Below, in pieces: positions 2,346-26,498 of a DNA stretch of 54,370 nucleotides (the first letter of the stretch is position 1; each line of letters begins with the position of its first letter). The notes beneath the pieces were generated by a model. That model had not been told where the DNA came from. It was given only the letters and a program-made list of their open reading frames with translations, and ran no database searches. The DNA is from a virus. Both the position numbers and the translations under genes were made by a program. The DNA is taken from IMG/VR virus record IMGVR_UViG_3300020421_000026, positions 1-54,370 of that record, one strand, 5' to 3'.

Positions 2346-2350
2346 AACAC

Positions 2351-3873: not shown

Positions 3874-3881
3874 GTAAAAGT

Positions 3882-6690: not shown

Positions 6691-6836
6691 TTCTTAGACT
6701 TGCGTTTTTTCTTTAATTTGCGTTTAGGATGCCCAAACATTTGGTCAAATCTATGATTTCTAGCATCAATATAGTCTTGTGGCTTGTCGTAAACCTTTTT
6801 TGGTGTTTTAAATTCTACTATTTCTGCTATTTTCAT
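6687..6836 (-). CDS. Small basic protein, 49 aa
   Basis: A small gene read directly from the sequence. It starts with an ATGA overlap on the stop of the di-iron protein gene and encodes 49 residues ending in a very basic tail (KRKLKKKRKSKK). Its TAA stop lies inside the late promoter of gp16. The first residues MKIAEIVEF resemble the start of the upstream di-iron protein (MKIEYTKTP). The tight overlap and sensible composition support a real gene. Nucleic-acid binding is plausible from the charge but nothing more can be said. Confidence 0.65.
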   Translation of the reverse strand: MKIAEIVEFKTPKKVYDKPQDYIDARNHRFDQMFGHPKRKLKKKRKSKK

Positions 6837-8377: not shown

Positions 8378-8812
8378 CTACGGTCTAATCTTATTTGCGA
8401 TTTTAGATTGATTGTTTTTGCTAGATACTTTAAGACCTATCTGGTTACCCACTGGTCTTAATTCATTTATTGCTTTATAAGTATTTTCTGCTAACTTGAT
8501 TGAATCTTCATTTATTTCAAAATAAGATATAGGATGAACTCCTTGTGCATCAGCAACTTTAATAAGTGCTACTGCTAATGCTCTTGCATTAGACTTTGCA
8601 AAGCCTATGCTTGTTAATCTGTTAAACACTATATCCATTTTGTCTGCAGATATGCCTCTGTCATCTACTGCTAACATGTTGACTAGTATTTCTAAACTTG
8701 CTTCTGGTAAAGGAAAGTTTATTGTGTTGTTTTCTAAAAACTTCACAAGTTTGTCTCTACGAACTTCGTAACTTATTTCATTACCAAATGTTGTATATAA
8801 ACTCTCACTCAT
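8378..8812 (-). CDS. Conserved hypothetical protein between tail-tube-like gene and gp4
   Basis: 144 aa, all-helical in appearance, no signal or membrane segment, basic C-terminus. I think it belongs to a small conserved family in marine T4-like phages but cannot name a function. Its ATG overlaps the stop codon of the 415-aa tail-tube-like gene as TAATG, so it is translationally coupled to a tail gene. A neck or tail-completion role (gp3-like position) is possible, but I see no sequence match to T4 gp3. Confidence 0.7.
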   Translation of the reverse strand: MSESLYTTFGNEISYEVRRDKLVKFLENNTINFPLPEASLEILVNMLAVDDRGISADKMDIVFNRLTSIGFAKSNARALAVALIKVADAQGVHPISYFEINEDSIKLAENTYKAINELRPVGNQIGLKVSSKNNQSKIANKIRP

Positions 8813-10059
8813 TATGCTGATCCGCCTCCACCAAAGCCTGCCGCCGCGGCTTGAGCCGCATTGTATTCATCTGCCATTGCCGCCGCTTCTTCATCTGTAA
8901 GTGGGCCTGCACCTTGAGGTCCAGTCTTATCTTGTTGTATGCTGGTATCTTTTTTAGCACCTTGTTCTTTAGGAACTTCTTTATTTCCAGTAGCACCTGG
9001 TGTACTGTTATTTGCAAAGTTACCTAACCATGAAGTTTGTTCGTTTCTATTTACTGCATCAACAAAATTTTCTGTTCTTGATTCAGACCAAGATGGACTT
9101 CTAGAGTTTGCTCTACTACCACCTGGTATGTCATCTGTGTTTGGATCACCATCTCTTAATCTGCTCCAGTGTCCTCTATTGAAGTCTGAAAATCTTTGTA
9201 GGTCATCTTCAGTAATAAATTCATTTATGATTGGTTGCATAGCAAAATTTTCATATGTTATATCCATAGTAATTAAGTTTGCTTCACTTGAACTGTGGTC
9301 AATGCCATCAATTTCAAAATTTGTAATCATTGGTCTGAACAAAGTGTACTTAATACACCTTTGTCCGTGATATTGAACTATGTCAATGCTGTCTATAAAG
9401 TTCCTAACAGCGGCAGGTTGTAATCTCAAACCCATAAAGTCGCTATCAAAACTATCATTGAACGAAGCAAAACCACTTCCATCTCCACTAGGTACTTCTC
9501 CTGGAACTATGTCATGCGGAGTTGCAACAGGCAACAAAGGATCACCTGCACTGGAACCTGGTTGAAATTTTCCTGATGGATTTAAAAACAAATGTTGGTA
9601 AGCCGCCATTAATACACTTACCCATATAGAATCAACTGTATCATATGCAACCATTTGTAATGGTTTAAATTCTGTATGAGTTACAGTTATTCTCTTTCTG
9701 TTGTATTGATTTTTTACGTCTGTTTGTATTTCAGCACTTGGAATACCAGATTGTCTAATTAAACTGCTTAACGTAAGTTGGTCTTGAAGACCTTGTTGTA
9801 CAGCAACTGGTAAGTCAACTTCCGGGTTGAAGTGGAAGTTGACATAACCATTAAATTTTTGACGTACTGGTGTATTTCCAGGCTTGAACCTTCTTGCATT
9901 TTGAAAGTCTCGCATGTAATGGTTCTTACCAAATTTGTCTTCACCATTAGTTCCATGTGAGTCTTCTACCCTTTGGCCATTGAACATATCAAAGCCGCCG
10001 GCTCGCATCAGAAAGTATCTACCATAACCTCTTATTTTTTCTTTACTTAAAAAAGCCAT
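8812..10059 (-). CDS. Tail-tube-family protein (gp19/gp54-like)
   Basis: 415 aa. The central part has the pattern of tail-tube-fold proteins: alternating beta segments such as RKRITVTHTEFKPL, IKYTLFRPMITNFEID and MDITYENFAMQP. It directly follows gp19. The C-terminal third is low complexity (Ser, Asn, Gln, Ala) and ends in an Ala/Gly-rich tail (GFGGGGSA). The most likely role is a second tube-family protein such as the baseplate tube initiator gp54 or a tube terminator. I cannot separate these by eye. It is co-transcribed with gp19, with a purine-rich Shine-Dalgarno (AGAGAG) ahead of the ATG. Confidence 0.6.
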   Translation of the reverse strand: MAFLSKEKIRGYGRYFLMRAGGFDMFNGQRVEDSHGTNGEDKFGKNHYMRDFQNARRFKPGNTPVRQKFNGYVNFHFNPEVDLPVAVQQGLQDQLTLSSLIRQSGIPSAEIQTDVKNQYNRKRITVTHTEFKPLQMVAYDTVDSIWVSVLMAAYQHLFLNPSGKFQPGSSAGDPLLPVATPHDIVPGEVPSGDGSGFASFNDSFDSDFMGLRLQPAAVRNFIDSIDIVQYHGQRCIKYTLFRPMITNFEIDGIDHSSSEANLITMDITYENFAMQPIINEFITEDDLQRFSDFNRGHWSRLRDGDPNTDDIPGGSRANSRSPSWSESRTENFVDAVNRNEQTSWLGNFANNSTPGATGNKEVPKEQGAKKDTSIQQDKTGPQGAGPLTDEEAAAMADEYNAAQAAAAGFGGGGSA

Positions 10060-10097
10060 TAGTTATACTCTCTTAAATCGTTATAATCTTAAAAAGA

Positions 10098-10736
10098 TTA
10101 TGCAGATTCGTTGTCAGTTGCGCCAGGTACTATTGAACTATCAAATGGGTTACCTGCTTCAACATTAGAAACAATACCACTAGGTCCTTGACTGTGTATA
10201 GCATTGTCATATCTAATTGTTAGAGAAACAGTAACAGGTTCATTTGTAGCATAGTCTGAGTCACTGTAATCAACGTTAGTTAAGAAACATCCTTCTAAGT
10301 TCCAAACTTCCATTGCGTCTGCAGTACTACCATCTAACACTTCAATTTGCATGTTAAATTTGTAATCTTCACCAGCAATTGGAGAAGTTTGTTCAAAGTG
10401 GTTTAATTGTCTTTGGTTCTGAGCACCAACAAGTCTTGCAACACTATTAGAAATATCATCACGTAATACTACTGTGATTGGATCCCAAGCATGTTTACCT
10501 TGTACATATACTTTTGAATTGTAAGAATCAATTACGACCTCTTCATAATTAACTTTAGGACGAGTAACGTTCATAACATTTTGTGTGAACCTTCTAGTGG
10601 ATTGGTCTCCACCAAAGCCATCAAGCATACTAACCCTAAATCTGAATTTCAGTTTAGGCATTAAGATACCTTGTTCACCAGCGACTACTGGAACACCAAA
10701 TTTGTTCTTTGTTTTATCAACTGTTGGACTTGCCAT
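10098..10736 (-). CDS. gp19: Tail tube protein gp19
   Basis: 212 aa, longer than T4 gp19 (163), with the extra length at both ends. Conserved features include KLKFRFRVSMLDGFGG near residues 29-44, VNYEEVVIDSYNSKVYV and HAWDPITVVLRDD, the signature of phage T4-type tail tube monomers that stack as hexamers inside the sheath. The late promoter lies at 10797-10803 and a 9-bp stem-loop sits in the leader, followed by a strong Shine-Dalgarno (AGGAGAT). It is separated from gp18 upstream by a terminator, so it is transcribed independently, fitting the high copy number. Confidence 0.92.
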   Translation of the reverse strand: MASPTVDKTKNKFGVPVVAGEQGILMPKLKFRFRVSMLDGFGGDQSTRRFTQNVMNVTRPKVNYEEVVIDSYNSKVYVQGKHAWDPITVVLRDDISNSVARLVGAQNQRQLNHFEQTSPIAGEDYKFNMQIEVLDGSTADAMEVWNLEGCFLTNVDYSDSDYATNEPVTVSLTIRYDNAIHSQGPSGIVSNVEAGNPFDSSIVPGATDNESA

Positions 10737-10894: not shown

Positions 10895-13684
10895 TTATGC
10901 TGTTGAACCCAAAGTGTTTTGAATTCTAATCGGTATGTAAATAAACTCAACTGCTTTGACTGGCTGTATCGCTATGTCAATGTAAAGTTCATTTCTATCA
11001 ATTCGAGCCGCTGTATTGTTTGTTGCGTCACAAACAGTTACAAAGTCGAATAGACCTCTTTGAATAACTAACTGACTTAAGAATCCATCAACAACGGATT
11101 TTGCATTTGCTCTTGTCAACTCATCGTTTGGTTCAAACAAGAAAGGCTTAACTGCATCGTCAAGTTGCTCTCTTATGTAAACTAACAATCTAGCAACATT
11201 AACTCTATCTAATGCACTTGAATTTGGATTCAATGTTTTTTGTCCAAATACTGCAAGTCCTCTTCCTGGGAATTGGGCAATAGGGTTAATTTTGTTTGCG
11301 TACAATGTGTCTCTCTGACCTTCGTTTAATGTAACTGAGTTATATTCACCGTCGGTTGGATTAACAAATCCTACTGATGTTGCGTTTTGTACAAGACCTC
11401 TTTGGAATCCTGCTGGTGCAAACCAAGGGAAAGCCACTTGGTCGTTGAATGCGAATGTTCTTAAAGCAACATGACTTGGCGGAACAACTACGTTAGTTCC
11501 ATCTAAGTTTGTTGTTAAAGCACTTGGATAGTAAACACCAGCATATGGTGAACTTGAAACAAGTCCATCTTCACCGTTTTCACTAGCATTGTTGGCGTTT
11601 GTTGCCCAATTTTTAGTGCTTGTTGCATCTGCTTTAAGTCTAAATGGTGTATCAGCAATAACAAAGGCAGTATTTCTTCTGTCTGTGCTTAGTGATATCA
11701 TTTCATCTAGCATTTCAGGGAAACCAGGAGCGGCTATTAAGTTGAATGAATTAGTTTCTGCTCTAATGTCATCATTAGAAACAATAGCGGCTTGCATTTT
11801 GATTTTCACCAAATTGTGAACTGCTTTTCTTAATCCAAACATTTTACCGTTTACTTGGTTACCACTTGCATCAACCCAAACATTACCAATGTTTGTTGAA
11901 GCAGGAGTATAGTTAATCTTATACTCTTTGACGTTACCTGCTGAAGCACGTTTGTTCCATCCTAGCATACCTGCAGGGTAGGCTGTTTGTGCAGGAGCAT
12001 CAGCATCTAAACTTGAAGTTTTAGACTGTCTGAAGTCTCCATAAATGATACCTTCTGAAGTAACTTGGTCTGTGCCGTCAACTTTAACCCATGCAGTACC
12101 ACTCCACTTGTAAAGACAAGGGAAGTTTTCAGTATCATCTGAGTCTAACCAAATGTCACCTGCCACTAGAGCAGTTCCATCTGATTGTGTTGTTGGAGCA
12201 GAAGCGGCAACACTTAAATCTTTAGTTAATGTCTGCCATCCACTTGATGCGTCATTTTCTAAGATGTCTACGTTTGCTTTTGCTACTGTGGCGTTATACC
12301 AGTAAGTTCCTTCTGCAAGAGTACCTGTGATAGATGTTTTACTTGCTTCGTAACTTAAATCTGCAAAGTTAGAGTATGTTTTACCTGCTGTAACCGCCTG
12401 TGATCCAAATCCTACTGAACTTGGTCCAAAGTCTGCGTGGTTACTTTGTAATACTATGTCTCTACCATCGCTTGATGTTAATACGACATTGTTGTCAGTT
12501 CCTAGACTTGCTGTAACTTTTGTAATTGATGCACCCGCTAATGCTGAGTTAATATCAAATACGGCATCTTCCGCAGTTGATGTTGCAGGTGTACCTGAAA
12601 TAGTACCTGCTAAAGTTACTACAACTGTTGTTCCGCCATATACTATGTCAAAACTTGAGTTGCCTGAAACGTCTAAGTTACTAATGGCTGAACCAGTAGC
12701 AACTACTGTTGAATTACCATTGTGTCTTTTTAACACAACAGTTGCTTCTTCTGGATCTACATTGTCAAACAAAGAAACTAAGTTTCCAACACTTACGTTT
12801 GCAGTACCAATGGAGGCGTATGCCGCATCACTGTTTGCATAGAAAGGAGCACTTACTGTAGAAAATGCTTTTGTTGAAGAACTATAAAGTTTTGCTTTTA
12901 AGTCTGCACCTTGGTTAGGTGTACTTGTTTGAATGAATAAATCCCCAGCGGATAATGAACTAACACCATCGCTCTTAAGTGCTGGTACTGTTGTGTGGCT
13001 TGCCCATTGGAAGTCTCCGCTTGTAGCAGATGCCCAACTTGTGCTACCAACAAGGTACCAGTCGTCACTGAATTTTTCGTAATACTTAACATTTGCGGCT
13101 GTTCCACCTGCACTTGTGTTTGCTACAACGGCATAATCACCGTTCAAACCAAATGCTCTTTTAGGTCCGCCTGTTGAAGAATTGATATTGATTGCGTCTA
13201 CAACGGATACGTCTTTTTTAACCCAAGCAGTACCACTATATTCTCTTAGTCCGTAGACTGAATTCGCTGTGTCTAACCAGTAACTTCCGTCAGCAATAGC
13301 ACCAGTTGGTGCGGCTGAAGAAGCCTCTAGTTGACCTAAATCAATGTCTGCTCTCAGAACGTATGCTCTGTTTGCCAAACCTAAGAATGAGTGGGCCGCT
13401 AGTAAGCCGTATTCATTGAGATCATAACCATGCAACTGATTACTACCTGACTTGTAAAATAAAGGATTTCCAAATTGTTGTAGTAATTCACGTTGACTTG
13501 TAATTAGTTGTAATTTTCCTGCATTAGCCTTAGATGTAAATGCCGCAGTCCCTGAACCATCTGGACTACTCTTATCTTGAGCAGTTGCAATGATTATCAA
13601 TGGAACTGTACCAGCACCAGCCGCCGCGTAAAACGATTCGTCTGATACACTAATACTAACACCAGGTGATACTAATGTTGCCAT
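10895..13684 (-). CDS. gp18: Tail sheath protein gp18, enlarged by an internal insertion
   Basis: Contractile sheath subunit. The N-terminus (LVSPGVSISVSDESFY) and the C-terminal 200 residues (GRGLAVFGQKTL, RVNVARLLVYIREQLDDAVKPF, VKAVEFIYIPIRI) are classic gp18. At 929 aa it is about 270 longer than T4 gp18 (659). The extra length is in the middle (about residues 120-560). It contains Thr/Ser/Val-rich beta stretches and at least two similar modules ending in SGTAWVK (near residues 150 and 530), which look like surface-exposed domains. A late promoter at 13716-13722 and Shine-Dalgarno AAGGAGAT drive it, and a rho-independent terminator follows at 10848-10876. Confidence 0.93.
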   Translation of the reverse strand: MATLVSPGVSISVSDESFYAAAGAGTVPLIIIATAQDKSSPDGSGTAAFTSKANAGKLQLITSQRELLQQFGNPLFYKSGSNQLHGYDLNEYGLLAAHSFLGLANRAYVLRADIDLGQLEASSAAPTGAIADGSYWLDTANSVYGLREYSGTAWVKKDVSVVDAININSSTGGPKRAFGLNGDYAVVANTSAGGTAANVKYYEKFSDDWYLVGSTSWASATSGDFQWASHTTVPALKSDGVSSLSAGDLFIQTSTPNQGADLKAKLYSSSTKAFSTVSAPFYANSDAAYASIGTANVSVGNLVSLFDNVDPEEATVVLKRHNGNSTVVATGSAISNLDVSGNSSFDIVYGGTTVVVTLAGTISGTPATSTAEDAVFDINSALAGASITKVTASLGTDNNVVLTSSDGRDIVLQSNHADFGPSSVGFGSQAVTAGKTYSNFADLSYEASKTSITGTLAEGTYWYNATVAKANVDILENDASSGWQTLTKDLSVAASAPTTQSDGTALVAGDIWLDSDDTENFPCLYKWSGTAWVKVDGTDQVTSEGIIYGDFRQSKTSSLDADAPAQTAYPAGMLGWNKRASAGNVKEYKINYTPASTNIGNVWVDASGNQVNGKMFGLRKAVHNLVKIKMQAAIVSNDDIRAETNSFNLIAAPGFPEMLDEMISLSTDRRNTAFVIADTPFRLKADATSTKNWATNANNASENGEDGLVSSSPYAGVYYPSALTTNLDGTNVVVPPSHVALRTFAFNDQVAFPWFAPAGFQRGLVQNATSVGFVNPTDGEYNSVTLNEGQRDTLYANKINPIAQFPGRGLAVFGQKTLNPNSSALDRVNVARLLVYIREQLDDAVKPFLFEPNDELTRANAKSVVDGFLSQLVIQRGLFDFVTVCDATNNTAARIDRNELYIDIAIQPVKAVEFIYIPIRIQNTLGSTA

Positions 13685-13829: not shown

Positions 13830-14531
13830 CTAATCGTTGTCGAATATATTTAGCACATTGTCTTTAACAGATGTTTTTTTGGTTTCTACCTGCTGTGCTT
13901 TAATGTCTAAGTACATATTGTTTACTTCTTGTTCTAAATCTTCTAAACTGCCTTTATTACTTATAACATAATCAAAATCATAGCCTACCCATTTCCATTC
14001 ACTGGCGTGAACTTTTGCAAAACGTGTTTCCATAGTGTGTTTTGCAGGCACACTACCTTTGTTGGCGTGTACGGCTGTTTCATACCACTCAGGGAGTTCA
14101 TCTCTTATAACATGTACAACAATGCCATTCAAAGATTTAATTAAATCTAATTCGTTTTTAAATCTACAATCACTTACAACAACCATTGTGTCTTGTTGTT
14201 CATTTTTTCTTATACGATATTCTAAACTGTCTAACCAAATATCTTGATTAAAATGGGTACGCATTATTTCTGTACCTAATAATTGTAATGCAAGTCTTGG
14301 AGTAAATTGGTCAATGCCTAGTTTTCTTGTCCAATACATGTCAGGTGTTTCTCTAAAGTCTCTACTTTCAATAGTATCACCTTGTAACATGTCTCTGGGC
14401 CAACCAAACACACTTGCACATAAGTCTTTTAAAGGAGCCGCAAAACTATCTTGAACTGCACCTTTTTCAACTAACATTTTGGCAACTGTGTCTTTGCCAC
14501 TTCCAATAAATCCTGTAATACCTACTATCAT
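13830..14531 (-). CDS. gp1: Deoxynucleoside monophosphate kinase gp1
   Basis: 233 aa. Phosphorylates dNMPs for DNA synthesis. The P-loop GFIGSGKDT occupies residues 7-15, followed by dNMP-kinase features including SFAAPLKDL, LLGTEIMR and the late VVVSDCRFKNE segment. Size and motifs match T4 gene 1 relatives. It is placed downstream of three oxygenase-like genes; the ATG has an AGGAAT Shine-Dalgarno and an ATAAATA element (14552-14558) overlapping the end of the upstream gene. Family secure. Confidence 0.9.
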   Translation of the reverse strand: MIVGITGFIGSGKDTVAKMLVEKGAVQDSFAAPLKDLCASVFGWPRDMLQGDTIESRDFRETPDMYWTRKLGIDQFTPRLALQLLGTEIMRTHFNQDIWLDSLEYRIRKNEQQDTMVVVSDCRFKNELDLIKSLNGIVVHVIRDELPEWYETAVHANKGSVPAKHTMETRFAKVHASEWKWVGYDFDYVISNKGSLEDLEQEVNNMYLDIKAQQVETKKTSVKDNVLNIFDND

Positions 14532-14551: not shown

Positions 14552-14558
14552 TATTTAT
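14552..14558 (-). promoter_or_regulatory. Late promoter of gp1
   Basis: ATAAATA overlapping the stop of the upstream oxygenase-like gene, 20 nt before the gp1 ATG, with AGGAAT between. Confidence 0.55.
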
Positions 14559-15415
14559 TTAAAAAAATTTCCGGTATCTACCAGTTCTTCTATTTGTTTG
14601 AAAGTAAATTCTGTATTTGCATGTACTCTAAATGAAACTCTAGGTGTGCCATTTGTAAGTACTCTATGCCATTGGGCAAGGTTTACAATGTAAGCATTGT
14701 GCATACCCTTGTGTTCTACTATTGGTGTCAAATCATCATACCAACTTTCATCCGAAAGCCAATGTTGAGTTGCTTTCATGCACATTTTATTTTGTTCAAC
14801 AATCTTTTCCCAAAAAGGTTCATCAGGTCTTTCTGTAAAAAATTTATTGATTAATTCTTTCTCATTTTGTAACATACGTTCAGTAGGTCTGGCAAATTCT
14901 AATACACTACCGTCTATGTCTCCTAGCAATCTAAAATTTATTACAGCAGGTGCTCTCATATTTTTTATATACTCAACACCAAATTCTTTTGGTATTGTTT
15001 CTTCATTAGGTATCTCTATAGGGCCTTCTTTATGCCAACCAGAAGGATCTGAAAAACATAAAATAGTTACAGGAGGATGAGAATGCATTCCATCTTTCCA
15101 TATTTTTTGAAAAACATCTGGTCTAAACGTATCATTCATCCAAGTCCAAACGTCATGTTTCATTTTTGTATCTGTTATTACTGCTTCACCATTAAAAAGA
15201 TTTTCTCTTTGAACATATTTCCATGCATCTTTATTCTTATTATCCATATATGTTCCAGCCATCCAATTATTCCATCTTACTGTTTTTCCGTTTATAGTTA
15301 AATCTGAGGGAACAGGTATATTACCATTGAACAAATCGAATTCGTAGTCACTAAAAATATTTTCAGCAGTAAACGGAAAGTCTATATCAGGAATATCACA
15401 ATAACATTCTAACAT
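14555..15415 (-). CDS. WHxE-family oxygenase-like protein (paralog 3 of 4)
   Basis: 286 aa. It belongs to a family of four in this window, defined by a shared framework: an acidic N-terminal motif (FPFTAENIFSD), a WHxE motif (GWHKEG), an NFRL strand (INFRLLGD), a late HRV motif (QWHRV), then R-V-S-F-R and a hydrophobic end (TGNFFK). The His/Glu, distal His and Arg fit the HxE-H-R facial triad and 2-oxoglutarate anchor of Fe(II)/2OG oxygenases on a jelly-roll fold. Activity is inferred, not established. The start overlaps the previous paralog by 7 nt. Substrate unknown; candidates include phage or host nucleic acid, protein or cofactor. Confidence 0.72.
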   Translation of the reverse strand: MLECYCDIPDIDFPFTAENIFSDYEFDLFNGNIPVPSDLTINGKTVRWNNWMAGTYMDNKNKDAWKYVQRENLFNGEAVITDTKMKHDVWTWMNDTFRPDVFQKIWKDGMHSHPPVTILCFSDPSGWHKEGPIEIPNEETIPKEFGVEYIKNMRAPAVINFRLLGDIDGSVLEFARPTERMLQNEKELINKFFTERPDEPFWEKIVEQNKMCMKATQHWLSDESWYDDLTPIVEHKGMHNAYIVNLAQWHRVLTNGTPRVSFRVHANTEFTFKQIEELVDTGNFFK

Positions 15416-16311
15416 TTTAATAATATCCCTTGTTGCCTATAATCTTTCATTGTGTTCCAATCTAATTTCATACCACTATGCAGTCTAAAAGTAACTCTAG
15501 TAGATTGGTCTCCTACAAGTACTCTGTGTAAACTTCCAAAATCTAACATAAAAGGAGACTTAAATCCTTTTTTAGTCTCTTGTACATTCATATGATTGTG
15601 CCATGGTTTTGTATCTAGTATTTGATCCACTGGTCCATAGGATTGAATTGTTGGCGACTCTTCGTTATCTCTAGCAAAAGTATAAAATCCTTCTTTTGCC
15701 TCCATCCACTTTTTAAAAAATTTTTCTCTAGTATCAATTATTGTTTGACTAAATTCATCTGACATTTCTGCAAATTCTATAGAACTGTTTTCTTCATCGC
15801 CTATTAATCTAAAATTGCAAACTGACGTAGAAACTCTCCACCATGGTCCCCACCATTTAGATAGATTGGATCTATTTTCTCTAATATGTTTTAATCTAAT
15901 AGGATCTGTTTCGCCGGGCTCCATGTGCCAAGGAGAATTGTTATTCCATACTAATATTGATACAGGTGCAATATTTGGAAAAGAACCACCCTTAAATAAA
16001 TCGCCAATCCAGTCTTCATGATATGTATCATTTACCCATTCCCAAAATATTCGTGAGAGTTTATTAGGTCTATTTCTGAGAATTCCTGTTGAACCTTTAG
16101 CAACTTTGACAATCTCGTCACCGTTTTCATTGACATGTCTTTTTACATTCCTAATCCATATAATATTTTCTGTTTGTATCGTATTTTCACTAATTGTTGT
16201 ATTAGTGTAATTATTTCCATATATCTCATCATAATCTTCATCTGTAAATAATTCATCTACTGTAAATGGTAAAGAGAGTTCTTCATTTGTGAATTCTAAA
16301 TAGTTGTTCAT
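15409..16311 (-). CDS. WHxE-family oxygenase-like protein (paralog 2 of 4)
   Basis: 300 aa, paralogous to its neighbours. Framework residues: LPFTVDELFTDED near residue 15, PWHMEPG (WHxE) in the middle, CNFRLIGD, SLHRV near residue 270, then RVTFRLHSG and the terminal GILLK. The third Trp of the usual WHRV is Leu here. It overlaps the upstream paralog by ATGA and the downstream one by 7 nt, so the three are one translationally coupled unit. The divergence between copies, only short motifs being shared, suggests old duplication and separate substrates. Predicted Fe(II)/2OG-type oxygenase by motif only. Confidence 0.72.
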   Translation of the reverse strand: MNNYLEFTNEELSLPFTVDELFTDEDYDEIYGNNYTNTTISENTIQTENIIWIRNVKRHVNENGDEIVKVAKGSTGILRNRPNKLSRIFWEWVNDTYHEDWIGDLFKGGSFPNIAPVSILVWNNNSPWHMEPGETDPIRLKHIRENRSNLSKWWGPWWRVSTSVCNFRLIGDEENSSIEFAEMSDEFSQTIIDTREKFFKKWMEAKEGFYTFARDNEESPTIQSYGPVDQILDTKPWHNHMNVQETKKGFKSPFMLDFGSLHRVLVGDQSTRVTFRLHSGMKLDWNTMKDYRQQGILLKC

Positions 16312-17159
16312 TTTAAAAGTTCTCCTTCTTCATGCATTTTTCTAAATGTACTAAAAGGAGTATCTTGTTTTGATTGGAAAACTAAACTTAATCTTATCTC
16401 ACCAGGGTTGTCTAAATACACTCTGTGCCAACTTGCTACATTTACTAAAAAAGGACTGTCGTATCCTTCTTTACAATTTATTTCTGTTAGATTGCTTTCC
16501 ATTTTACTACCAGGTTTTATTGCATCTCTGTTTGCAAAAGACTTAAAACTTTTGGTTTCATCTTCAGCATACTCTACTTGAGATACAAAAGGAGCATTAT
16601 TAAATTTATTATCTAACTCATTATATACGTTTCTTAATGAATTGTCAAATGTTTTATCATGATTTGCAAATTTTATTCTTGTGCCTGTTGTTGGGCCTAC
16701 TAAGTTAAAATTTAATCTTGTGCTGGATCTAAATCGTTGAAAATGTTTTGGGTTTGCAAAAGAATGCATTCCTTCGTGATGCCAATGCCCTGTGTCTGGA
16801 TAATGTAAAATTAAACTTGCTGGAAATATCTGTTCTCCAACATTAAATCCGGGCCACTTTTGATGTGTCCACATGTTATCTAAAAATTGTTTGGGATTTT
16901 TAAATGTATCATTTATAAAACTGTAAAGTCTTCTTGCAATCTTTTTATCCGTAATCATTGCCATTGCGGCTGTCCAATGTAACTTGTCTGTTTTTATCCA
17001 GGACTCTTGTCTTGCTTGTGCTTGTTGTATGAGTGCTAAATCGCCACGCATAATACGACGGTCATCTTCACATAATAACTCGTCAGCACTTATGGGACAT
17101 TCTAGTTGGGGTAGGTTGATAAATGTGTCTTTATCCGATAACAAATCCGAGTGGTGCAT
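16308..17159 (-). CDS. WHxE-family oxygenase-like protein (paralog 1 of 4)
   Basis: 283 aa from the ATG at 17159. A longer frame starts at a TTG inside gp13, but the ATG gives an N-terminus (FINLPQLECPISADELL) aligned with the other paralogs and has a purine-rich site just ahead. Motifs: HWHHEG (WHxE), LNFNLVG, SWHRV, then RLSLVF and the terminal GELLK. An HxE-H-R arrangement suggests a non-haem Fe(II)/2OG oxygenase. It overlaps the end of gp13 by 29 bp, so it is expressed in the gp13 late transcript. Confidence 0.72.
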   Translation of the reverse strand: MHHSDLLSDKDTFINLPQLECPISADELLCEDDRRIMRGDLALIQQAQARQESWIKTDKLHWTAAMAMITDKKIARRLYSFINDTFKNPKQFLDNMWTHQKWPGFNVGEQIFPASLILHYPDTGHWHHEGMHSFANPKHFQRFRSSTRLNFNLVGPTTGTRIKFANHDKTFDNSLRNVYNELDNKFNNAPFVSQVEYAEDETKSFKSFANRDAIKPGSKMESNLTEINCKEGYDSPFLVNVASWHRVYLDNPGEIRLSLVFQSKQDTPFSTFRKMHEEGELLK

Positions 17160-17898
17160 TTCCTTCTTCCATATTGTGTAATGATGCAATCAATTGTTCC
17201 ATTTCAGTTAATGCTTCACTTTTTAGAGCATCACCATTCAATGTTGTAGCACCGCCAGGTCCAGGAAGTCCACCAGGGAATTTGCTTCTTGCCTCACCTA
17301 ACATCATTTTACTTTGTGCTAAGGCATAGGCACTTAGCCACTCTGCGGCATAAACGTCTTTGATTAACACACTTTCTGGAATAAAGTTATTGACTCCTAC
17401 TGCAATATCTTCTTCGTGATTTACATTTCTTAGAATTGTTAATTCTTTTGTATTCCTGTTAAAGGTAAAGTTGTATTCGCTACCAAACACACGACCAATA
17501 GTTTCTTTGTATTGTGCAAATGCATCAAATACTGCTAGTCCACCTATTTGTCCTGCTTGTAACATATACATATTGTTGAATGCAACATCAAATGGATCAA
17601 AGTTAGTACCGCCACCACTATTGGTACCAATACCACGTCTATATAATCTTTTAACGTCTATAACTTCTTGAGGTAATGTATATTTTGTAACACCTGCTTG
17701 AGTTTGAACGAATATAACTGCTTCTTCTACACTTCCTGTACTTAATTGTCTGTACTTTTGTATAGATTTATTAATTGCTACATCGTAATGGTCCCTGTCT
17801 AATTCAACATCTACCATACCATCAGCAAGACGTAATTGAATTTCTTCAATTATTTCGTTTCTACTGTTATATCCTATTTGGTCTATTCTTGTTGCCAT
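17131..17898 (-). CDS. gp13: Neck protein gp13
   Basis: 255 aa from the ATG at 17898. A longer frame would read through the late promoter and is rejected. gp13 and gp14 form the neck collar to which the tail joins. Features of the family: NEIIEEIQLRLADGMVDVEL at the N-terminus, DHYDVAINKSIQKY, EVIDVKRLYR, and a C-terminal segment with EARSKFPGGLPGPGG leading to a helix ending LIASLHNMEE, as in T4 gp13 (LPGGVTVDGQ). The ATAAATAGTAGTATG arrangement puts the promoter 5 nt before the start, without Shine-Dalgarno. gp14 is at 27874 on the other strand. Confidence 0.82.
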   Translation of the reverse strand: MATRIDQIGYNSRNEIIEEIQLRLADGMVDVELDRDHYDVAINKSIQKYRQLSTGSVEEAVIFVQTQAGVTKYTLPQEVIDVKRLYRRGIGTNSGGGTNFDPFDVAFNNMYMLQAGQIGGLAVFDAFAQYKETIGRVFGSEYNFTFNRNTKELTILRNVNHEEDIAVGVNNFIPESVLIKDVYAAEWLSAYALAQSKMMLGEARSKFPGGLPGPGGATTLNGDALKSEALTEMEQLIASLHNMEEGNAPLGFVIG

Positions 17899-17903
17899 AC
17901 TAC

Positions 17904-17910
17904 TATTTAT
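17904..17910 (-). promoter_or_regulatory. Late promoter of gp13
   Basis: ATAAATA, GTAGT, ATG: identical to the gp16 arrangement. It decides the gp13 start at 17898. Confidence 0.75.
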
Positions 17911-17931
17911 CACTTTTTGGTATTATACCAG

Positions 17932-17938
17932 ATAAATA
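17932..17938 (+). promoter_or_regulatory. Late promoter of inverted WHxE paralog
   Basis: ATAAATA, TATGC, ATG. Identical over this stretch to the promoter at 27823 on the other strand. Divergent from the gp13 promoter. Between them lies an 11-nt palindrome-like GGTATTATACC. Confidence 0.7.
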
Positions 17939-17943
17939 TATGC

Positions 17944-19026
17944 ATGGATACAAACTACTACAACTATATAGAACATACAAAGCATAATATGTCTAAAATT
18001 TTAGACAAAGGCAGTATTGTACCCATAAAAGATGATGTAGGCGTAGGTTTTAGGTACTATGACACCGATAAAACAGACCAACTACAAATGAAAAAATTTA
18101 GAACAGTTGCTGATTATGATCCTAGATTATCAAATCAGTTTACTAAAGAAGATTCTTTTTTAGACTTTCCTGAGTTAAATTTACCTATAGACCTAGATGA
18201 TTTCTTTACAGATATAGACCACGAAATTTGTGAAAAGAAATTTTGGGGGAAAGGTGATGAGGACGACTCATCTACTCAACAAGTTGTTCATTCAAAGAAT
18301 ATAGGCTGGTTAATACATCCTGCTAGAAGTATAGGAACTAAAGTTGCTAAAGATGATAAAAGAGGTGTGTGCATTGGACATATTTTAAGTCCTAAGTACA
18401 AAAAATATTTTTGGGAATATGCAAACGACACTTTCCATGAAGATTTTATAGACATTATTAAAGACCATTTAGGATACAAACAAGTTCCTGTTAGTATTAT
18501 ATCAATAAAAGATTTACATCATTGGCATCACGAAGGTGTTCAACCTTGGCATGATTATACTCCAATTCCATATTATACAAGACGCACAGAAACATGTATT
18601 AACTTTAGATTATTTTCATCAACTGACGATGACGAAACAGAAGTAAATTTTGGTTGGCCCTCCGTTGAAGTGCATAAAGAGTTTTCTAAAATATCAGACG
18701 AACTAAATGAAAATATTATAGATAAATTTCAAGGAGATGAAGGCAGAAAGGTTGAATGGATACATAATGAAAATCTACAAATAAAAACTGCACTACATCA
18801 AGATACTATACTACCAGATTCACAACTCAATGACGAGATAGAATTAGTTGCAACTAAAAAAGGATATCATTGCCCTTTTATGATTAACACTAACTACTGG
18901 CATAGAGTTTACACAAAGGATACAAAGACACCTAGAATAACTTTAAGATTTTTTAGTCCTATGGGAGTTCCGTTTCATCATTTTAGAAAGTTACACCAGG
19001 AAGGTAAACTTTTAAAAAACTTGTAA
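17944..19026 (+). CDS. WHxE-family oxygenase-like protein (paralog 4 of 4, inverted)
   Basis: 360 aa from the ATG at 17944. An upstream in-frame start at 17836 is rejected because it lies within gp13 and before the promoter. Same framework as the three minus-strand copies: LDFPELNLPIDLDDFFTD, HWHHEG (WHxE), INFRLFSS, YWHRV, RITLRFFSP, and terminal GKLLKNL. It carries an extra N-terminal segment of about 60 residues. A plus-strand ATAAATA ends 5 nt before the ATG. It faces away from gp13 with only 45 bp between starts, and its last 15 bp overlap the convergent gene at 19012. Confidence 0.75.
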   Translation: MDTNYYNYIEHTKHNMSKILDKGSIVPIKDDVGVGFRYYDTDKTDQLQMKKFRTVADYDPRLSNQFTKEDSFLDFPELNLPIDLDDFFTDIDHEICEKKFWGKGDEDDSSTQQVVHSKNIGWLIHPARSIGTKVAKDDKRGVCIGHILSPKYKKYFWEYANDTFHEDFIDIIKDHLGYKQVPVSIISIKDLHHWHHEGVQPWHDYTPIPYYTRRTETCINFRLFSSTDDDETEVNFGWPSVEVHKEFSKISDELNENIIDKFQGDEGRKVEWIHNENLQIKTALHQDTILPDSQLNDEIELVATKKGYHCPFMINTNYWHRVYTKDTKTPRITLRFFSPMGVPFHHFRKLHQEGKLLKNL

Positions 19027-20172
19027 TAATATAGTTTGTTCATTTAACCTACCTGTAAGTTTAGTAGGTGTTGTTTTTACTTCATCAAATGCTTTTGCAA
19101 ATTTTGTTTTTGCTCTACCAGTCCAATTATTAATTTGTTCTGCAGGCTTTCTTAAAGTTTTTTGCAAACTTGTTTCTTCGTCAAAGTCTTGTATAGTAGT
19201 TCCTTTAACCATTAAACCTGCACCTTGTCTTTGTAACCCACGTGGGTCTTTGTCTTTTGCGTGGTAAACTCCTACTTTACGGGTCTTTGTATTGTACACC
19301 CATAGTTCATTGGCGTAAACGACGTCTGTGGGCGAGATAGATGCTATTCCTAATGCTCCATCGTTGAGTTGAAACTTTAGTTTTTTAATAATTACATCTT
19401 TACTTCTTGCTCTAGGCTTACGTTGTTTTCTGTTTGCTTTACCTGTAAGTATAATTGCATCACAGGCGGCATTTATTTTTTCAAAGAATGCAACATAATC
19501 TTTCTTCATTTTCTTATCCATAAAACTATATGCTTCTTTAAGTTGTTCACATGTGCCTTCCAAACTTTCTACTGCTTCTGCATGATTAAGTTCATATTGG
19601 TCTTTAATCATTTTAGCATGTGCTGGCTTAATAACTCCGCCACCAAATACTTTCATATCTTTCTCAGGATCAAACTTTTTAAGATTAAACTTTTCTGTTT
19701 CTATAAAAGTATCTAGTAAGTCGTCCCATTCGCCGCATAGGTCAGTTATTTGCAAAAGCATTCTTTCTTGTATTGATATTTTTGGTGGTGCTTCTTTTTG
19801 TTTTTCTTGTATCTCTTCCACAATTTCCATACCTGTCTTAATAAGTTCTTCTTTTTTTGTAGCATAGAATTTAGCAAAACGTTCTGGCATATATCCTAAC
19901 TTATACCAACACCAGCCGTACTTTGCACTACTGCTAAATCTCCAGTCTGGATTTTTAAGTATTATTTTTATTTCTTCTTTGTCCCAACCACTTGCTTCTT
20001 TTACCCACTTGCGATATTTGGATACTGCATCTTTAGTTGAAATTTCAGAATGTACAAAATAGTCAACCGACCTGAATGCCAACTCTTGTTGTTCAGGATC
20101 AGTGATAGCCTGATACTTTTTCCAGTCAGGCTCTTTTGTTACATATACTGTTCTTTGCTTTCGTTTTGCCAT
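19012..20172 (-). CDS. Conserved hypothetical protein, 386 aa
   Basis: Basic N-terminus (MAKRKQRTVYV), a charged helical middle (about residues 100-260, Lys/Glu-rich), and a beta-rich C-terminal domain (about 280-340, IASISPTDVVYANELWVYNTKTRKVGVYHA). I believe relatives exist in marine T4-like phages but cannot name the function. No signal peptide or membrane segment. No clear promoter or strong Shine-Dalgarno is visible. A perfect 10-bp inverted repeat lies upstream at 20213-20248. It ends in a 15-bp convergent overlap with the oxygenase-like gene. Confidence 0.75.
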   Translation of the reverse strand: MAKRKQRTVYVTKEPDWKKYQAITDPEQQELAFRSVDYFVHSEISTKDAVSKYRKWVKEASGWDKEEIKIILKNPDWRFSSSAKYGWCWYKLGYMPERFAKFYATKKEELIKTGMEIVEEIQEKQKEAPPKISIQERMLLQITDLCGEWDDLLDTFIETEKFNLKKFDPEKDMKVFGGGVIKPAHAKMIKDQYELNHAEAVESLEGTCEQLKEAYSFMDKKMKKDYVAFFEKINAACDAIILTGKANRKQRKPRARSKDVIIKKLKFQLNDGALGIASISPTDVVYANELWVYNTKTRKVGVYHAKDKDPRGLQRQGAGLMVKGTTIQDFDEETSLQKTLRKPAEQINNWTGRAKTKFAKAFDEVKTTPTKLTGRLNEQTILLQVF

Positions 20173-20263: not shown

Positions 20264-20686
20264 TTATAGTTTTTTGGCTGTTAATCCTACTGTTGCTGAT
20301 GCAACACGTGATTCACCATCGAATACTTTGCAATCATAAAACATATGATGCATTTTACGTTTGGCAAGTTTGGCTTCTAACCTTAATCTTGTTCCAGGAA
20401 ATACAGGATATCTAAATTTACATTTGTCAACACTAGTAACAAATGTAACATAATCTTCATGTTTAAGTTCACCATTCTCTTTTCCTGCTAAGTGAAGTGC
20501 GTGAAGTCCAGCACATTGGTTCATACCTTCAATAATATAAACACCGGGCCATATTTTTACATGTGGGAAATGTCCTTCTAATACTGGATGAGCATCATGA
20601 ACCATATATGTTGCTTCTATTTCTTCATCACTAAGAATAGTGTGTTCGTCAATCAGTGCTATTGGATGTCTGTGTGGTAGTTCCAT
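20264..20686 (-). CDS. FabZ-like 3-hydroxyacyl-ACP dehydratase (hotdog fold)
   Basis: 140 aa, the size of FabZ (about 150). FabZ dehydrates 3-hydroxyacyl-ACP in fatty acid elongation. Visible signatures: LPHRHPIALIDE at residues 3-14 (FabZ LPHRYPFLLVD), GHFP with the catalytic His39, and PGVYIIEGMNQ with Glu53, then FRYPVFPGTRLRLEA. The active-site pair is intact. The ATG lies 38 bp inside the 3' end of the radical SAM gene upstream and has a GTAAATA late-like element 6 nt ahead. The start is supported because the motif begins at residue 3. It may alter host lipids or make a modified acyl group for the adjacent radical SAM enzymes. Family confident; pathway role inferred. Confidence 0.85.
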   Translation of the reverse strand: MELPHRHPIALIDEHTILSDEEIEATYMVHDAHPVLEGHFPHVKIWPGVYIIEGMNQCAGLHALHLAGKENGELKHEDYVTFVTSVDKCKFRYPVFPGTRLRLEAKLAKRKMHHMFYDCKVFDGESRVASATVGLTAKKL

Positions 20687-22562
20687 GTAGAGTATTTACA
20701 CCGTCAACATAAATTACTTTGTCATATTTGGTATGACTTGATACTTGCCCAACTAGGTTCCAATATTTTCTCAAATAATTTTCACCTGTTGGAGTATGGA
20801 CTGCTTCTTTTTTGAAGTACCCACCACTCATCATTTGTCGCGGTATATATCCTTTGCTATCAAAATATCTCATAGTTGTTTGCAAAGCAAATCTCATAGC
20901 AGTCATGTGTGTAATTCCGTGTCTATTAATATAACTGCTAAAATTATGTGCTAGTTCATCTTGTGGTAAATGTTTTGATTGTGGATTTATTCTAGAAAAT
21001 TTATATCCATATTTTTCTGGATCTTCAACTATAGGAGATTCTTTGCCTCCTGTAATTTGTTTTACTCTAGAAGATTCTGGTGCGTTCATAGTGTATGCAT
21101 TTACGTCTAAACAATCTAATTTATTGTAGTTTGGATCACAAATTTTATCAGCCATAATCTTCAATTCTTTTTTACTGTCCTCAGGTAAGCCTACCATAAA
21201 CATACTGAACAATGTTACCTGGTCTCCAAATGGAGTATCTTGTAAATCGGCAATGTATGCCATTTGTTCATCTGGATGCCAACCTTTATTAATAGCAACA
21301 GCACTATCAGGGATAAGTGTCTCAATGCCATAATGTGCAAATACTAACCCTGAGTCTATTAATACTTGTTCTTGTTTTAATCTGTTTTGTAAATCTAATC
21401 TTATAAATGCTGTATATTCCAAAGGTATATCTAACTTTTCTTTTAGTTTTGCAATTTTAATAATTTTTTCTGTATCATCATTAAAAGTATCATCTGCCAT
21501 CCAATACCTATGTACTCCATGCTCGTACCAATTACGTTTGATTTCATCTTCTAATAAACTTTGACTTCTAAGATAACTGCCTTTTTCTTTTCCAGTTAAA
21601 CCAAAATTACAAAAACTACATTCAAAAATACAACCTCTTGCTGTTTCCATTGTAAGCATATCATTTGTTTGCAAACAATCTTCAGGTGTATATTGCATAG
21701 TTGAATTAGTTATATCAAGTCTACTACCAACATCTGTATAAAAATTTACTCGTTTTTTATTGTCTATATCTTCTAAAATTTCTGTAATCGTGACATCTCC
21801 ATATCCATTGTTTACTATATCAATGTCTCCAATTGGAGAATCAGACATTTCAATTGTTTCTTTCTTAAGTGCAGGTCCAATTGCTCCACCTAATATCATT
21901 TTAGTATCTGGATTTCTTTCATGTATCCACTGTTTTATCTTTTTTTGACGACCAGGCATGAAATATAAACTGTGAACTAATCCATGAGGATTTGATATAC
22001 CTGAAAATACAGTACTAAAACAAACCGCTCTAGTATTTTCCCCAACAAATTTGTAAAATATCTTTTGAAAATCTTGTTCAGTTGCATAAAAATGGTGTCC
22101 TATAACTTGACAAGTGTACCCTGCTTTTCTTATTTCATGTGCAACTTTAAATCCGCCAAAACCTTTTGCAGTAACATCATATACCATGTGTTCACTGTAA
22201 TCCCAAAGACCAACTGGACTCTCTTCAATAGGATGGTCTCGTTGAGCACATCTTAAATATGCTCTATATTCTCTGTCTGTTAATTCTTTTCTTCCCAATT
22301 CCTGAAAAGCGGCACCGGGATATGTAATAGAAGAATACCATGCAGGAGTAATATCAGATGTAAACATCAAAACATCTGCCGGTGTATGTTCTATTTCGTG
22401 TAATGGGGTATCATCTAACATGCCTACTGGTGAGATAGGTATGCCAGCAAATGCATATGGATCTTCTTCTGTAAACTTTCTTTCTCTAAACCTTTCCCAA
22501 ACTGGTGCACGAATTCTTACTTTTTCTAGTGTATTATATATTCGTTTTTCTTCTGGTGTCAT
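20649..22562 (-). CDS. Cobalamin-type radical SAM protein (paralog B)
   Basis: 637 aa, the longest of three paralogs, with about 55 extra N-terminal residues. The B12-binding-type domain spans roughly 58-265 (TPADVLMF start, KMILGGAIGPA, NNGYGDVTITEIL). The radical SAM cysteines are C311, C315 and C318 (GCIFECSFC), followed by GLTGKEKGSYLR, also found in paralog A. A C-terminal helical domain extends to the end. The ATG overlaps the stop of paralog C (ATGA). The FabZ-like gene overlaps its 3' end, so the three genes are one unit. Substrate unknown. Confidence 0.88.
   Translation of the reverse strand: MTPEEKRIYNTLEKVRIRAPVWERFRERKFTEEDPYAFAGIPISPVGMLDDTPLHEIEHTPADVLMFTSDITPAWYSSITYPGAAFQELGRKELTDREYRAYLRCAQRDHPIEESPVGLWDYSEHMVYDVTAKGFGGFKVAHEIRKAGYTCQVIGHHFYATEQDFQKIFYKFVGENTRAVCFSTVFSGISNPHGLVHSLYFMPGRQKKIKQWIHERNPDTKMILGGAIGPALKKETIEMSDSPIGDIDIVNNGYGDVTITEILEDIDNKKRVNFYTDVGSRLDITNSTMQYTPEDCLQTNDMLTMETARGCIFECSFCNFGLTGKEKGSYLRSQSLLEDEIKRNWYEHGVHRYWMADDTFNDDTEKIIKIAKLKEKLDIPLEYTAFIRLDLQNRLKQEQVLIDSGLVFAHYGIETLIPDSAVAINKGWHPDEQMAYIADLQDTPFGDQVTLFSMFMVGLPEDSKKELKIMADKICDPNYNKLDCLDVNAYTMNAPESSRVKQITGGKESPIVEDPEKYGYKFSRINPQSKHLPQDELAHNFSSYINRHGITHMTAMRFALQTTMRYFDSKGYIPRQMMSGGYFKKEAVHTPTGENYLRKYWNLVGQVSSHTKYDKVIYVDGVNTLHGTTTQTSNSTD
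20693..20699 (-). promoter_or_regulatory. Variant late promoter of FabZ-like gene
   Basis: GTAAATA, one mismatch to the usual element, 6 nt before the ATG and inside the upstream coding sequence. Confidence 0.4.
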
Positions 22563-24346
22563 TTTTTTAATACTTGTTCTATGTATTTGTTGTACCTGTT
22601 AATCTCTACTTTGTTAATTCTTTCTACAGAATCCAAATCAAACTCATCAAATTCTTCAGGTGTAATATTTTCGCCTTCTTTGTAAGGTAATCCAAAAGAT
22701 TTAAAAAGCATATTGGGCCAAAGTTTACCTGCGTCCATTAGTCTTTTATTTAATCTATTAGAAAATTTTAAGGCATCTACAAATGTAATGCCATTTTTAT
22801 TTTTATATAAAAATTGTGCATGAAAAAACTTTTGTATTTCTGGTTCCATTTCTTTTCCATTCATATATTGTGTAGTAGGTTCGTAACCGTAATCTCTCCA
22901 ATTCTTCTGGAATTCACTATCAGTTCTTTCATCAAATCCTTCTGGTGTAATACTTAATGGTCTTACTGCTGTACCTACCATAGGATTTTTATCTGATACT
23001 AAAAAGTTTGCCATTTCTTTTATACTTTTCTTTGTATCACTAGGTAGTCCTACAATCATACCGCTACCCATATCAACATGTGACCAAACACCGTCTTTAA
23101 GTTCACGCATGTATTCAAATTGTGTCATTGGATTTAAACCTTTACCAATGTCGACTGCACTATCGGGGTCAGTTGTTTCCACTCCAAACTGTACATGTAC
23201 TATTCCTGCATCTCGAATAATTTCTGCTTGACTAGGAGTTCTATTTCTATTTGCATATAATAAATCTAATCTTATGTAACAAGCAAACTTTAATTTAAAA
23301 GGCAATGTTTTGGACATTTCCATAAAGTCTATCATTTTATCGTGGTCATCATTGAACGTATCATCTACAATCCAATAATGTTCTACTCCAAACTTTTCAT
23401 AATTATGTACAAGTTCTTCTCGTATAAGATCCATGCATCTAATACCTTCACCTTTTTGTTTTCCATTTAATGCAAAAGAACAAAACTTACATTTGAATAT
23501 ACAACCTCTGCTAATTTCAATAGGTAATATTTCGCCTGGATATAAACAATCGTCTTCGTGCCATTTCATTGTGGAGTGTTTTACATCTTGTTTGCTGAAT
23601 ACATCTTCTTTAAAAGGTAACCCAAAATTGTTTTTAGGTAATTGTTCTACATCTCCGTCTTTTAATTCTGTTAGTATTTCAGGTACAGTGATATCGCCAT
23701 ATCCTATGTTTACAATATCAACATGTTTGTAATCTGATTTTTTATTTGTAAATGCTCCGCCTTTCATTAATTTTGTTTTTGGGTTGACTTTCTTAAGATG
23801 TTCTACAAACAGTTCATCTATTTCAGGACCATGTGGTAAAAATCCTACATACGCCTGTGTATCATCTGAGGTTGCACCATATTTTTCTTTAACGTCATGT
23901 CCATAAAAAGGATCTAAGTTTGTATAGGAAGGTCGTACATTTAATCTATTTGGTATTTTTGCTATAAAAGTATTACTAATACCTACTGCTAAAGTATTTT
24001 CTCCAACGTATTTGTCTAATACTTTTCTCAAAGTTGCTATATCCATATGAGTTATTAAGTCAACTACTTGTACAGTAAAGCCACTTTCTCTAACTTCATG
24101 AGCAACTTTATAAGGTCCTAATGCTCTACTGCCTACAAAAGGGAACATATCAAACCAGCCAAGTTGCCACAAAGGTGAATTAAGTCTCTCAGGATCATTT
24201 TCTTTTAAGTATTTGCTGGACTCAGCAAGATGTTGTTTTACTTCATATCCGTGTGATTGTATTCCCCAGCCGATATTATCAGCAAGTAGTAGGAAATCTA
24301 CAGGTGTATGTTCCACCTCTATTGAACTATAAGGGTTATATTGCAT
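22559..24346 (-). CDS. Cobalamin-type radical SAM protein (paralog C)
   Basis: 595 aa. The B12-type domain starts at TPVDFLLL (about residue 14) and includes KLMKGGAFT and NIGYGDITVPEIL. The radical SAM ligands are C282, C286 and C289 (GCIFKCKFC). First gene of a three-gene unit with paralog B and the FabZ-like dehydratase. An ATAAATA element lies 7 nt before the ATG at 24354-24360, immediately next to the 3' end of tRNA-Arg, so the promoter may also separate tRNA and mRNA transcripts. As in the paralogs, no DxHxxG is seen. Likely electron donor: a reductase system such as the product of 24451. Confidence 0.88.
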   Translation of the reverse strand: MQYNPYSSIEVEHTPVDFLLLADNIGWGIQSHGYEVKQHLAESSKYLKENDPERLNSPLWQLGWFDMFPFVGSRALGPYKVAHEVRESGFTVQVVDLITHMDIATLRKVLDKYVGENTLAVGISNTFIAKIPNRLNVRPSYTNLDPFYGHDVKEKYGATSDDTQAYVGFLPHGPEIDELFVEHLKKVNPKTKLMKGGAFTNKKSDYKHVDIVNIGYGDITVPEILTELKDGDVEQLPKNNFGLPFKEDVFSKQDVKHSTMKWHEDDCLYPGEILPIEISRGCIFKCKFCSFALNGKQKGEGIRCMDLIREELVHNYEKFGVEHYWIVDDTFNDDHDKMIDFMEMSKTLPFKLKFACYIRLDLLYANRNRTPSQAEIIRDAGIVHVQFGVETTDPDSAVDIGKGLNPMTQFEYMRELKDGVWSHVDMGSGMIVGLPSDTKKSIKEMANFLVSDKNPMVGTAVRPLSITPEGFDERTDSEFQKNWRDYGYEPTTQYMNGKEMEPEIQKFFHAQFLYKNKNGITFVDALKFSNRLNKRLMDAGKLWPNMLFKSFGLPYKEGENITPEEFDEFDLDSVERINKVEINRYNKYIEQVLKK

Positions 24347-25868: not shown

Positions 25869-26498
25869 TTATTTGAAAGGAATGTCAAGTCTTATTGTAA
25901 GACCTAATTTAGATTCACAGGTCATTTTGCCTGTTGCATGAATACTCTTTGCATCAAACTTTAAAACATTGCCAGGTTCAAAGGGATATGCTGTTCCACT
26001 TAATCCATGCCAATAGTCTTTAGGTTGGTGATCCAAATGTGAATATAATTCATCATCAACTTCTTTGTTTGTTGAATACAGGATGTCATAATCACATGGT
26101 CTGCCTAAAAGTTCTTTGTTATGTTGAAACTTTGCTTGTTTATCTTTAAACACCCAAGTGTTTGCAGGATTGTCCCACACTTGGTCAAATATTATTAAGT
26201 GTGGTTTAGAATCATCTGCTACTTCTAAAGGCATTACAATATTTGATATTTCTCGTTCATGATAATCTGTATGAGGATATAATGGCTGTGTGTGTTTATA
26301 AAAATGTGCTAATGTAATATTTTCTGCATTTACATTTATCAAGTCTGCAATGAATTTTATATCAGCCTTTTTATCAACTTTAATCATATTGTTAGGAAGT
26401 TTTACTCTACTAAATGGATTACTGTAAAACATTTTTTTAAGATGTTCTATAGTGTGTTGGTCTATAACATTCTTTAATAGTTGCGGTTGTAAAATCAT
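25869..26498 (-). CDS. 2OG-Fe(II) oxygenase, marine-phage type
   Basis: 209 aa from the ATG at 26498, which overlaps the upstream stop as TAATG; a longer frame inside the upstream gene is rejected. The iron-binding triad is clear: H76-T-D78 (YPHTDYH), H187 (SIHATG), and the 2OG-anchoring R203 (LTIRLDI). Length and motif spacing match prolyl-hydroxylase-like oxygenases that are common in T4-like cyanophages. It is unlike the four WHxE proteins, which use Glu in the triad. It is coupled to the SPASM-type radical SAM gene, so the two may act on the same substrate. Confidence 0.85.
   Translation of the reverse strand: MILQPQLLKNVIDQHTIEHLKKMFYSNPFSRVKLPNNMIKVDKKADIKFIADLINVNAENITLAHFYKHTQPLYPHTDYHEREISNIVMPLEVADDSKPHLIIFDQVWDNPANTWVFKDKQAKFQHNKELLGRPCDYDILYSTNKEVDDELYSHLDHQPKDYWHGLSGTAYPFEPGNVLKFDAKSIHATGKMTCESKLGLTIRLDIPFK

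Follow-up and report, generated by a model that had tools for sequence, protein, structure and literature searches.

Diverged putative Fe(II)/2-oxoglutarate oxygenases around the neck gene of an uncultured T4-like ocean phage

Why would a phage keep four diverged copies of one gene around the gene for its neck protein, and what might these copies encode? The question is raised by a 54,370-bp record of an uncultured virus (IMGVR_UViG_3300020421_000026; its whole length is called the window here), a fragment of a large T4-like ocean phage that carries the T4-like module genes for large terminase, portal, Gp23 capsid, prohead protease, tail sheath, tube, neck and sheath stabilizer. Its nearest cultured phages are PA5oct/MIJ3-type jumbo phages of Pseudomonas, with genomes of 285–288 kb (terminase 57%, neck 50%, sheath 43%). 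We consider it likely that the four genes encode Fe(II)/2-oxoglutarate (2OG) oxygenases in a late operon. Their hydroxylation target would probably be a product of late infection, perhaps proteins of the phage itself.

Four homologous genes around the neck gene

The genes of the locus are arranged as follows, with letters denoting subfamilies of the putative oxygenases:

13830–14531, minus strand: deoxynucleoside monophosphate (dNMP) kinase, far border of the array site
14555–15415, minus strand: first putative oxygenase copy, subfamily A, 286 amino acids, with H128, E130, N160, H250 and R259; used for the structure model
15409–16311, minus strand: second copy, subfamily D, 300 amino acids; overlaps the neighboring copies by 7 and 4 bp
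16308–17159, minus strand: third copy, subfamily F, 283 amino acids when started at ATG 17159, versus a mechanical open reading frame (ORF) that extends to 17189
17131–17898, minus strand: neck protein (head–tail adaptor), whose gene opens the putative late operon that includes the tandem copies
17989–19026, plus strand: inverted copy, subfamily E, preceded by a late-promoter motif of its own; start of the mechanical ORF at 17836

A preliminary description of the window had placed four such ORFs here, and they were found as described, three in tandem on the minus strand and one inverted on the plus strand. The closeness to 'gp13' that it pointed out is also real, as the neck gene separates the tandem copies from the inverted one, a position which does not identify a substrate. 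The start of the third copy is more likely 17159 than 17189, as judged from the orthologue in the related phage L002. For the inverted copy, which has an incomplete orthologue at the same inverted place in L002, 17989 is more likely than 17836 and sits downstream of a conserved late-promoter motif.

The copies had been described as sharing short motifs and having little else in common, which understates their relationship. All four are homologous over their full length, with pairwise identities of 22–28%; blastp E-values are 8e-14 to 5e-29 in five of the pairs and 1e-10 in the remaining one. The motifs WHxE and HRV are present in all four copies, and the other proposed motifs show small deviations: WHRV is replaced by LHRV in the second copy, NFRL and RxSxR by NFNL and RLSLV in the third, and the C-terminal GxLLK by GNFFK in the first. 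A profile built from the four copies found no fifth copy in the window.

Scans of viral contigs yielded relatives from about 11 further distinct phages. Including the window, about 12 uncultured phages contribute 43 distinct sequences to the family. Of these, 40 are full length; members are mostly 265–315 amino acids long, with one compact member of 217 amino acids. Bacterial and archaeal genome contigs yielded no relative.

Predicted fold and conserved residues

The AlphaFold2 model of the first copy (predicted local distance difference test score 86.5, predicted template modeling score 0.86) shows a double-stranded beta-helix, so the jelly-roll that the preliminary description proposed to look for by structure prediction was present in the model. 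The best matches among solved structures were 6n1f (Z 9.8), proline 3-hydroxylase (1e5r, Z 9.6), HalB/BesD (Z 9.1) and human AspH (Z 8.9). Foldseek placed KDM7A first (E 2.5e-4), followed by AndA, WelO5 and KanJ. Among the matches shown, every solved structure that could be classified by its name was a 2OG/Fe(II) oxygenase or a member of that fold. When predicted models of viral proteins were searched, the best matches were uncharacterized proteins of 170–210 amino acids from uncultured phages (E 7e-8).

The residues of the putative active site are the most constant part of the family. Histidine, glutamate, asparagine, histidine and arginine at the positions of H128, E130, N160, H250 and R259 are kept in 40/40 full-length members, even where identity falls to about 20%. 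Only seven of 228 well-filled alignment columns are invariant among the 40 sequences, namely these five together with P14 and W48. Judged on the alignment, this conservation is beyond chance, with four of the seven columns being the H, E, H and R of the proposed center. The spacing within HxE is 2 in all 40, and the arginine follows the second histidine at +9 in 18, at +10 in 11 and at +11 in 11 members. In the model, H128 opens a short strand that comes after strand 116–121, N160 lies in strand 157–164, H250 lies in strand 249–253, and R259 opens strand 259–266. An HxE-H-R center with an arginine about 10 residues after the second histidine is what we take to be the proline-hydroxylase/PHD type of 2OG site. 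In the mechanism suggested by the model, H128, E130 and H250 would hold the iron, R259 would bind 2OG by its far carboxylate, and N160 would probably help to place 2OG or water. We infer that each enzyme would convert O2 and 2OG to CO2 and succinate while hydroxylating (or otherwise oxidizing) its substrate.

Prolyl hydroxylases have a His-x-acid...His arrangement with a basic residue shortly after the second histidine. The predicted proteins share the double-stranded beta-helix and, presumably, 2OG chemistry with proline 3-hydroxylase, prolyl-4-hydroxylase and AspH (1e5r, 4j25 and 5apa; Z 7.7–9.6), but identity is 7–10% and HxE takes the place of the HxD that is usual in that group. The halogenases BesD, HalB and WelO5 (6nie, 7u6j and 5iqs) have the same fold (Z 8–9), but in them glycine or alanine replaces the acidic metal ligand, whereas the glutamate is invariant here (40/40). 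Halogenation is therefore unlikely, and hydroxylation is favored. KDM7A was the best Foldseek match, yet Pfam gave no JmjC match, and an arginine at +9 to +11 fits a subgroup other than the JmjC demethylases and ribosomal oxygenases, in which a lysine on an inner strand serves 2OG. Cupins share the fold and have His/Glu metal ligands, and we give very little credence to the possibility that the copies are dioxygenases or hydrolases of the cupin type, which have a metal site but do not use 2OG, because the invariant arginine occupies the 2OG-binding position and the structural matches are 2OG enzymes rather than plain cupins.

The assignment to the Fe(II)/2OG enzymes that had been proposed for the four copies is thus supported by the predicted jelly-roll, by the structural matches and by motif residues on the expected strands, but not by any profile library. 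Several points weigh against it. Foldseek TM-scores are low (0.2–0.35), the best Z of 9.8 is moderate and little above the 7–8 that is typical without a clear match, the fold comes from a model of one paralogue only, and the metal-site residues were located in that model by strand position. The family is recognized by no profile library, and in profile-profile comparison with cyanophage and pelagiphage PF13759/PF13640 proteins only a 17-column H...R motif was aligned, with a probability below 1%.

At relaxed thresholds, nothing above chance level was found in Pfam, PHROGs and NCBIfam (not every library was run for every member), and by these comparisons the family is absent from all three. In 10 members, hmmscan gave no match to PF13759 or PF13640 (nor was there one in the related records that hold arrays), to PF05721 (PhyH), PF05118 (AspH) or TET/JBP at E-values up to 10, or to the AlkB Pfam model. 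A search of PDB sequences with the family profile returned nothing significant. Five of six members had no tblastn match in 50,697 phage records; the sixth matched a Cas4-type exonuclease of Mycobacterium prophages at E 0.3, which we took as chance. Whole-genome profile searches of PA5oct, Phosso, Atu_ph07, S-SCSM1, P-SSM2, P-HM2 and HTVC008M found no family member; for the four marine phages, S-SCSM1 and HTVC008M among them, this empty result came from a run without a positive control.

2OG oxygenases are common in marine T4-like phages. They were found in 14 of 16 cyanophages (Sullivan et al. 2010, PMC3037559), Synechococcus phage S-SCSM1 has 24 such genes, assigned to PF13640, PF13661, PF13759 and PF05721 (PMC9602691), and eight kinds were described in uncultured pelagiphages (PMC9599517); in all three reports their function is left open or hypothetical. 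In our searches, PF13759 gave 12–14 matches each in S-SCSM1, P-SSM2 and HTVC008M. The family described here would resemble these enzymes in superfamily and in the number of diverged paralogues per genome. It differs in being undetected by those of their profiles that were tested, in size (mostly 265–315 versus mostly 160–250 amino acids) and in placement, as a tandem array at a fixed site in a putative late operon rather than scattered genes. It adds more than 40 sequences to what is probably the same superfamily, where current annotation profiles find nothing.

Array site, subfamilies and late-promoter motifs

In 11 of the 12 phages, the copies, one to five per phage, follow a conserved order at a single site flanked by the neck and deoxynucleotide-kinase genes. 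Written by subfamily from neck to kinase, the arrays are:

Window: F-D-A plus inverted E
L002: F-D plus inverted E
L001: G-C-B-A-A
L008: C-B-A-A-A
L030, L034 and L035: C-B-A-A
L033: B-A-A-A
L031: B-A-A
L039: G-C plus a cut copy, running off the contig end
L011: D, running off the contig end

The most distant phage (L003/L023) has the compact 217-residue member (L023:922–1575) at this site, with WHCEGP, LNFLV, LHRS and the arginine; in this twelfth phage a full-length member lies elsewhere. Wherever the contig reaches, the gene order is neck, array, dNMP kinase and, where reached, sheath. In two relatives an S-adenosylmethionine (SAM)-dependent methyltransferase gene stands between the array and the kinase (L002:2970–3839 and L011:700–1572). 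In PA5oct, the neck and kinase genes (locus 9741 and 9746) are 4 bp apart with no array between them, so this phage shows the unfilled site. We infer that the family was probably gained between these two genes in a PA5oct-like ancestor and then multiplied and split into conserved subfamilies. A fixed site in a probable late structural operon, together with a closest cultured relative that lacks the family, offers a clean comparison with and without it.

Identity is 62–99% within subfamilies, except for the broad subfamily A (33–95%), and has a median of 25% between them. The tree separates the subfamilies, with strong support for pairs and for clade A and an unresolved deep order. Orthologous pairs are under purifying selection, with ratios of nonsynonymous to synonymous substitution rates (dN/dS) of 0.11–0.30, versus 0.09–0.15 for neck, kinase and sheath. 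Since the subfamilies keep their order across phages under such selection, it is plausible, on these sequence data, that the diverged copies serve several substrates, and the split into conserved subfamilies would most likely mean that each acts on a different one.

The timing of expression was approached through promoter motifs. The octamer NATAAATA, which we take to be a T4-type late promoter, occurs 26 times in the window and lies within 120 bp upstream in 18 of 42 gene-start regions, versus about 1.1 expected. Exact TATAAATA was also considered and rejected, as it is rarer than chance; the phage uses GATAAATA and AATAAATA instead. A sigma-70 promoter scan of the region gave no more sites than shuffled sequences did. 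Two motifs lie between the neck gene and the inverted copy:

17904–17911, minus strand: GATAAATA, T4-type late-promoter motif of the neck gene, 13 nt upstream of its ATG
17931–17938, plus strand: GATAAATA, late-promoter motif of the inverted copy, 58 nt upstream of its ATG; also kept in L002

The distance from GATAAATA to the neck ATG is 13 nt, without exception, in the window and in all other relatives for which the neck start was read. The tandem copies of the window have no late-promoter motif of their own and overlap each other by 4–7 bp, so they are probably transcribed from the neck promoter. The putative oxygenases would thus be late genes, three co-transcribed with the neck gene and the fourth read from its own divergent late promoter, and with such shared and divergent promoters the enzymes would be made alongside virion proteins. 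In L001, two motifs lie just before the first copy and one inside the array.

The octamer starts 13–15 nt before the start codon in nine genes of the window:

750–2345, 6178–6678, 6833–7903, 17131–17898 and 22559–24346
26498–27817, 27874–28902, 30801–31430 and 31717–33597

With this spacing, transcription would begin at the ATG or close to it, which predicts leaderless late mRNAs.

Candidate substrates and neighboring genes

The placement of the array points to late, possibly virion-directed, chemistry, although a late promoter does not reveal the substrate of an enzyme. Hypermodified bases, glycan parts and structural proteins had been named as examples in the preliminary description. Polypeptides synthesized in the same period (neck, sheath, tube, fiber or capsid proteins) are the substrates that we put forward, tentatively and short of an even chance. 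Candidate virion proteins in the window are the neck protein (17131–17898), sheath (10895–13684), tubes (8812–10736), capsid (46393–47532) and the phrog_11903 protein (19012–20172). A more specific and somewhat doubtful form of this proposal is a virion-hydroxylation system in which each paralogue would hydroxylate one structural or assembly protein during its synthesis, with gain and loss of paralogues tuning the array. If true, this would be a bacterial virus with a post-translationally hydroxylated particle.

The same enzymes might instead act on small molecules (amino acids, lipids or cofactors) as auxiliary metabolic genes, or shift 2OG levels and thereby push host nitrogen metabolism; we rank this second, only slightly behind protein substrates and likewise short of an even chance, with evidence on both sides. 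Enzymes that hydroxylate or halogenate free amino acids (proline 3-hydroxylase, BesD/HalB) are among the nearest solved structures, and the neighborhood is rich in small-molecule enzymes (three B12-binding-type radical SAM proteins, a FabA-like dehydratase and an AurF-like diiron protein). A role in 2OG levels was proposed for the cyanophage enzymes (Sullivan et al. 2010, PMC3037559), and the role of marine-phage 2OG oxygenases, open since 2010, is usually read as altering host nitrogen metabolism. However, the copies share a putative late operon with the neck gene and keep their place next to structural genes, and mere consumption of 2OG would not need three to five diverged paralogues under purifying selection.

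Modification of phage nucleic acid or nucleotides (hypermodified bases, as suggested in the preliminary description, or oxidized methyl groups) is improbable. Phages are known to encode TET-like dioxygenases that modify DNA, and the array borders a dNMP kinase. We rejected this proximity as a hint of base modification, since the kinase adjoins the neck gene in PA5oct, which has no array, so it implies no functional link. The scanned members match no TET/JBP or AlkB model, and late timing with the neck gene is unfit for precursor synthesis, though compatible with post-replicative change; the promoter evidence makes late-made products likelier than early nucleotide chemistry. That the copies are catalytically dead jelly-rolls with a structural or adaptor role in the neck or tail is very improbable: jelly-rolls are common in virions, and the copies lie beside neck, sheath and tube genes with the same kind of promoter, but the residues for iron and 2OG, which a dead scaffold would lose, are the most conserved of the family (40/40).

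Other enzymes of the same phages were also noted. Two relatives have an Asp/Asn beta-hydroxylase-like gene (L001:11470–12258, PF05118, E 1.4e-10) a few kb from the array, downstream of the sheath gene; it belongs to the 2OG superfamily but, unlike the array proteins, matches Pfam and forms a separate family. The three radical SAM proteins of the window (4492–6177, 20649–22562 and 22559–24346, minus strand) are 30–36% identical to each other and resemble cobalamin-binding methyltransferases. The FabA-like dehydratase gene (20264–20686), conserved in relatives, adjoins two of them. The product of 6833–7903 (minus strand) has a weak match to AurF-type diiron N-oxygenases (E 1e-5, below the family cut-off), and 26498–27817 (minus strand) encodes a radical SAM/SPASM protein, divergent from the tail genes. 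In L003, genes for isocitrate lyase (3429–4643, PF00463, E 1e-92) and a flavin/NAD reductase (2299–3015) lie between the FabA-like gene and the full-length oxygenase member.

Farther away, a curli/type VIII secretion island occupies 31717–37976 on the minus strand:

31717–33597, minus strand: CHASE2 adenylate cyclase
33614–34519 and 35684–36514, minus strand: two curlin-repeat genes
34519–35721, minus strand: FecR
36492–37472, minus strand: CsgG
37476–37976, minus strand: CsgF

The same curli gene set has been described in Pelagibacter phages (PMC9599517), and the island may point to an alphaproteobacterial host. Beyond it, 39006–46264 (minus strand) encodes two large proteins of 741 and 1642 amino acids that have repeated stretches in common at 30–61% identity and are possibly tail fibers.

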